Source: Thermoplasma acidophilum DSM 1728
GTDB taxonomy: Archaea > Thermoplasmatota > Thermoplasmata > Thermoplasmatales > Thermoplasmataceae
DNA length: 64,000 nt
Reading direction: 5' to 3'
NCBI RefSeq assembly: GCF_000195915.1
Contig: NC_002578.1
Coordinates: forward strand, 62,001-126,000
The notes under the pieces are model-generated. The model did not search any database. It had not been told where the DNA came from and worked only from the letters and a program-made list of their open reading frames with translations. Shown piece by piece: positions 19,954 to 20,111 of this stretch. The number at the start of each line of letters is the position of its first letter. The first letter of the stretch is position 1. The translations under genes were made by a program, and so were the position numbers.

Positions 19954-20049
19954 ACGATACAAGGCGCGGAATGCGATAGCCCGTATTCATTGTCTTGGGT
20001 CTGCGTTTGCCATGGAAACAGAAAAATAGATTCAACCAATCATTGTGTG

Positions 20050-20111
20050 GATCACTGTGATGAGAATTCATCTTTCTGATATATGATGAAAGACGGGCAG
20101 GCTGAGTGATC
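20050..20111 (+). ncRNA. Box C/D guide sRNA
   Basis: All elements of an archaeal box C/D methylation guide are present in order. Terminal stem GATCACT (20050-20056) pairs with AGTGATC (20105-20111). Box C GTGATGA is 20057-20063, guide one 20064-20075 (12 bases), box D' CTGA 20076-20079, a 3-base spacer, box C' ATGATGA 20083-20089, guide two 20090-20101 (12 bases) and box D CTGA 20102-20105. Both guides have the canonical 12-base length and the C'/D' spacing is right. Such RNAs assemble with L7Ae, Nop5 and fibrillarin and direct 2'-O-methylation of rRNA or tRNA at the fifth base from D or D'. Targets were not identified. It lies in the gap after purN. Confidence 0.85.

Follow-up and report, generated by a model that had tools for sequence, protein, structure and literature searches.

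What is encoded in the gap between the purN and CDGSH protein genes of Thermoplasma acidophilum, and which nucleotide would its product select? The gap holds a 62-base element on the forward strand, at positions 20050 to 20111 of the window, the latter being the whole 64,000-nucleotide stretch of DNA that was analysed. A first-pass annotation had read this element as an archaeal box C/D gene guiding 2'-O-methylation, and its anatomy, its conservation and the coevolution of guide and target all argue for that sequence-based prediction. The methylation targets had been left open; a candidate can now be named for the D guide, namely the 16S nucleotide equivalent to E. coli C1402, but not for the D' guide.

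Anatomy of the sRNA gene

The gene reads, in order, GATCAC-T-GTGATGA-GAATTCATCTTT-CTGA-TAT-ATGATGA-AAGACGGGCAGG-CTGA-GTGATC. From the 5' end, all on the forward strand, box C (GTGATGA, 20057 to 20063) is followed by a D' guide of 12 nt (GAATTCATCTTT, 20064 to 20075), box D' (CTGA, 20076 to 20079), a D'-C' spacer of 3 nt (TAT, 20080 to 20082), box C' (ATGATGA, 20083 to 20089), a D guide of 12 nt (AAGACGGGCAGG, 20090 to 20101) and box D (CTGA, 20102 to 20105). The 5' arm of the terminal stem, GATCAC (20050 to 20055), pairs with the 3' arm, GTGATC (20106 to 20111). Archaeal box C/D sRNAs are recognized by four boxes, the outer C (RUGAUGA) and D (CUGA) and the inner D' and C', by two guides of about 12 nt, each immediately preceding D or D', with a short D'-C' spacer, and by a terminal stem that closes the C/D K-turn; all of these are present. 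Direct reading of the sequence thus reproduces exactly the coordinates, the order of the four boxes and the two 12-base guides given in the first-pass annotation. Its perfect 7-bp stem has to be shortened: six pairs lie outside the boxes, and the seventh, T20056-A20105, borrows its A from the 3' end of box D, which leaves a free terminal stem of 6 bp. The folding energy of the sRNA is not unusual (z -0.26), as expected of a K-turn RNA. A possible TATA-like promoter element, AGAAAAATAG (20020 to 20029, forward strand), precedes the stem by about 25 nt; spacer comparison finds it identical and at nearly the same spacing in G002, the nearest congener, and lacking in the other congeners.

The boxes are short and one of the guides is without a convincing target, as would be expected if they had come together by chance in a spacer or were the remains of a degenerate gene. 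The full C-D'-C'-D arrangement, however, has a single occurrence in the window and none in 300 windows of the same composition generated by a first-order Markov model, and such an origin would also have to accommodate class-wide conservation, covariation of the stem and coevolution of guide and target, all described below. We consider it vanishingly improbable. In the whole 1.56 Mb genome, the strict C-D'-C' pattern has this single match, with none in a reversed control.

Conservation in the genus and class

The purN and CDGSH genes, correctly named as flanks in the first-pass annotation, enclose the sRNA in the same order in four congeners. When the congener spacers are aligned, the sRNA stands out as the conserved part and the remainder of the spacer drifts, G002 also retaining part of the upstream flank. 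Loss of the boxes in T. volcanium beside conserved neighbours had been named in advance as the result that would count against the gene; in G004, which we take to be T. volcanium, the sRNA and both flanking genes are kept, as they are in the three other congeners.

Each of the four congeners has an ortholog, and others occur elsewhere in the family and the order. Twelve orthologs served to build a covariance model, which matches 342 of the 400 class genomes searched, nearly always exactly once per genome, and 177 of the 192 that are of good quality. When 20 genomes lacking a first match were searched again with greater sensitivity, they returned weak matches or none; many of these are incomplete assemblies. 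Within the first 12 orthologs the TGATGA of box C and the CTGA of boxes D' and D are invariant, the wider set containing a few departures in box D' and two in box D, and box C' is likewise conserved among orthologs. The terminal stem is preserved as a structure: in 90 distinct aligned sequences all six pairs have changed on both sides, with 93.9% of cells paired. The covariation score is 0.562, as against 0.180 for shuffled sequences and at most 0.135 when the partner is slid. Although the 90-sequence alignment was fitted to the covariance model, the slid versions and an independent MAFFT alignment of 12 sequences agree with it.

Archaeal C/D guides are regarded as fast-evolving (PMC7994747, PMC4644070), and published archaeal sets have no methylation site common to all seven species (PMC7994747), in contrast to the retention of this guide across the class. 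The sRNA shares with the archaeal sR families (Pyrococcus, Sulfolobus, Pyrobaculum and others) its box order, a length of about 60 nt, dual 12-nt guides, a terminal K-turn stem, the N+5 rule and a genome that encodes fibrillarin. It nevertheless belongs to no named Rfam sR family: the window sequence reaches the gathering score of no Rfam family, the best being sR2 (RF01139) at 32.1 against 42 bits, and the D guide aligned in sR2 differs from the one found here. A literature search on C/D guides of the Thermoplasmatales found no paper; subscription literature lay mostly outside that search, and an earlier prediction may exist. The window sRNA is a further member of the known archaeal box C/D guides, and an unusually widely kept one.

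The D guide and its predicted 16S target

Numbering the D guide from box D (g1 = G20101, g5 = G20097, g10 = G20092), its core GACGGGC (20092 to 20098), comprising g10 to g4, pairs with GCCCGUC at 1343-1349 of the T. acidophilum 16S rRNA. The N+5 nucleotide, G20097, faces 16S C1344; the aligned E. coli nucleotide, C1402, belongs to the P-site part of the decoding centre. The T. acidophilum duplex consists of seven uninterrupted Watson-Crick pairs and, beyond an A.C mismatch at g3, a further pair at g2, and so falls short of the nine pairs that the rule of Dennis et al. requires (PMC4644070). Within this one genome, 99 of 100 shuffled guides score as well as the D guide, and the 12-base guide complements proposed in the first-pass annotation, AAAGATGAATTC and CCTGCCCGTCTT, have no perfect match in the 16S, 23S or tRNA genes. 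The T. acidophilum match alone is too short to stand out, and the target can be named because guides were compared across genomes.

Across 98 sequences, g4, g5, g6, g9 and g10 are invariant while g1, g11 and g12 drift; the remaining positions alternate between two bases, g8 (C or T), g7 (G or A), and g3 and g2 (A or G). At the N+5 position the pair is Watson-Crick in every case. When g2 to g10 are set against 16S 1399-1407 in 100 guides, assuming U1404 wherever g7 is A, every one of the 100 contains only Watson-Crick, G.U or A.C oppositions. Full pairing is rare: in 89 of the 100 guides, one or both of g2 and g3 are an A that faces a C. It looks as if full pairing were avoided, perhaps because A and C can form an A+.C wobble at acidic pH.

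A second site invites comparison. In T. acidophilum, the D guide could be aimed at 23S CCUGCCC next to box D (C1885, E. coli C1836), where g1 to g7 also form seven contiguous Watson-Crick pairs. Over the 100 guides, however, this 23S site has 3-7 Watson-Crick pairs as compared with 7-9 for the 16S site; it leaves the invariant g9 unpaired and fails to explain the coevolution of g7 with 16S 1404. We rejected it for its poorer pairing and hold it to be very improbable.

Coevolution of guide and target at 16S 1404

In the 32 genomes for which both sequences are available, g7 and 16S 1404 agree without exception (20 G/C, 12 A/U), the g7 of G022 and G186 having been read by eye and entered by hand after a first regular expression had missed their guides. 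A simple count, which ignores kinship, gives this agreement a probability of 4e-9. On the 16S tree there are five changes for g7 and five for 1404, and all five independent pairs are concordant; the corresponding sign test gives p = 0.0625, the minimum attainable with five pairs. That the D guide follows its predicted target base by base is direct comparative evidence of target choice.

The helix 44 partner of 1404, position 1497, turns from G to A in all 12 of the U1404 genomes. The resulting U1404-A1497 pair, which replaces the near-universal C1404-G1497 pair of helix 44 in about five independent changes within the order, is found in the 16S genes of G015, G347, G022, G018, G186, G230, G027, G397, G030, G033, G036 and G354. 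With U1404, the widely shared 16S stretch ACACACCGCCCGTC becomes ACACACCGCCTGTC.

A predicted guide for 16S Cm1402

We conclude that the locus is very probably an independent box C/D sRNA gene whose D guide directs fibrillarin to 2'-O-methylate 16S C1344 (E. coli C1402). Two motifs would form in the transcript, a C/D K-turn, which the terminal stem closes, and a C'/D' K-loop, and L7Ae, Nop5 and fibrillarin would bind to it; the D guide would then pair with CCGCCCGUC of the 16S rRNA, allowing fibrillarin to methylate C1344, in the decoding centre, at its 2'-OH. For this locus, we infer transcription, RNP assembly and methylation alike. The T. acidophilum genome does encode a fibrillarin homologue (PF01269, 217 bits). 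Cm is present at the equivalent site in Pyrococcus abyssi (Cm1376), yeast (Cm1639) and human (Cm1703), and E. coli carries m4Cm1402 (PMC7005279). The P. abyssi residue, an archaeal Cm at the position equivalent to the predicted target, was seen in 16S rRNA by cryo-EM with mass-spectrometry support (PMC7005279). In eukaryotes, this nucleotide is guided by snR70 (yeast 18S Cm1639), U43 (human Cm1703) and AtU43 (plant Cm1645) (PMC5199042, PMC8817022, PMC11542601). It is because of the fibrillarin gene, the Cm at the equivalent site elsewhere and the guiding by snR70, U43 and AtU43 that we propose this locus as the Thermoplasmata guide for 16S Cm1402.

The D' guide

The D' guide has a different history. 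In the genus Thermoplasma it is CATCTT-like and finds no target better than those of shuffled guides. The best consistent site in three congeners, 23S A2604 (near E. coli 2579), is equalled by 15 of 100 shuffled guides and was rejected. In many relatives GAATTCATCTTT is replaced by TCAGCCTT, and 41 of the 98 sequences contain TCAGCC or TTAGCC in the D' guide. Such guides match 16S CAAGGCTGAA (E. coli 899-908, in helix 27), with G902 as the N+5 nucleotide. The genus Thermoplasma and several other lineages no longer have this helix 27 guide but keep the D guide. The invariant core of the D guide, set against the changing D' guide, implies that the former is strongly constrained and the latter free to change; in Thermoplasma the D' guide may be idle or may have another target. 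In family f24 (L101, L110, L113, L134, L137 and L142), the D' guide AAACCCAGCT resembles the complement of 23S near E. coli 2577-2586, as judged against the bacterial 23S sequence.

In the folded subunit, the helix 27 site (899-908) lies near helix 44. An sRNA that touched both could serve mainly as a folding chaperone bridging two 16S sites (helix 27 or 911-921, together with helix 44), with methylation secondary. The match of the D' guide to 899-908 in many relatives fits such a role, as does the ATTCCTT in the D' guides of a second phylum (see below), which is complementary to part of 911-921. Dennis et al. have put forward double guides of the chaperone type (PMC4644070). Against this, the helix 27 guide is dispensed with in Thermoplasma and several lineages that keep the D guide, and the N+5 position of the latter never departs from a Watson-Crick pair. 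We therefore judge a chiefly chaperoning function quite unlikely, and retain methylation of C1344 as the predicted role of the sRNA.

Counterparts in other lineages

If the target is as predicted, the window sRNA and snR70, U43 and AtU43 act on the same rRNA nucleotide (the E. coli C1402 equivalent) by the same mechanism, and the sRNA would share the function of the U43/snR70 guides, namely to direct 2'-O-methylation of the small-subunit (SSU) C1402 equivalent. Sequence homology to U43/snR70 beyond the boxes and guide was not found: with the SNORD43/snoU43 models the archaeal relatives reach 14-19 bits, far short of the gathering score of 45, and these models are absent from the Rfam matches listed for the window sequence. 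In bacteria, RsmI and RsmH are stand-alone proteins that act on the same nucleotide without a guide RNA, with N4 methylation in addition to 2'-O-methylation (m4Cm1402; PMC5053481). Few rRNA ribose methylations are shared by all three domains; for one of these the locus would be an archaeal equivalent of snR70/U43, which makes the age of the SSU Cm1402 guide testable.

A scan of a genome collection for perfectly pairing guides returned, outside the Thermoplasmata, C/D-like RNAs with GACGGGCGG before box D from a micrarchaeon (L294) and a Thermoproteota archaeon (L228). In the phylum of L228, a match occurs in 18 of 29 genomes; in each of the 18 sequences box D is preceded by GACGGGCGG or GATGGGCGG, and their common D' guide, with ATTCCTT, is unlike that of the Thermoplasmata. 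Most matches of the scan were bacterial (Bradyrhizobium, Azospirillum and others) and were taken as chance; the three bacterial loci checked, L225 and L272 (match across the pattern only) and L241 (none), do not score as sRNAs, and neither does the Poseidonia match L277. Descent of the Thermoplasmata, second-phylum and micrarchaeal sRNAs, together with U43/snR70, from one ancestral SSU Cm1402 guide, as opposed to repeated origin from a universal target, is a doubtful proposition at present. The micrarchaeal locus (L294:2257-2318) is a complete C/D sRNA that has the D-guide core in common with the window sRNA but differs from it in the D' guide. L321 to L338, from the phylum of G401, are C/D-like sRNAs with GACGGGCGG or GATGGGCGG as D guide and often degenerate D' boxes; the ATTCCTT of their D' guides is the stretch complementary to part of 16S 911-921.
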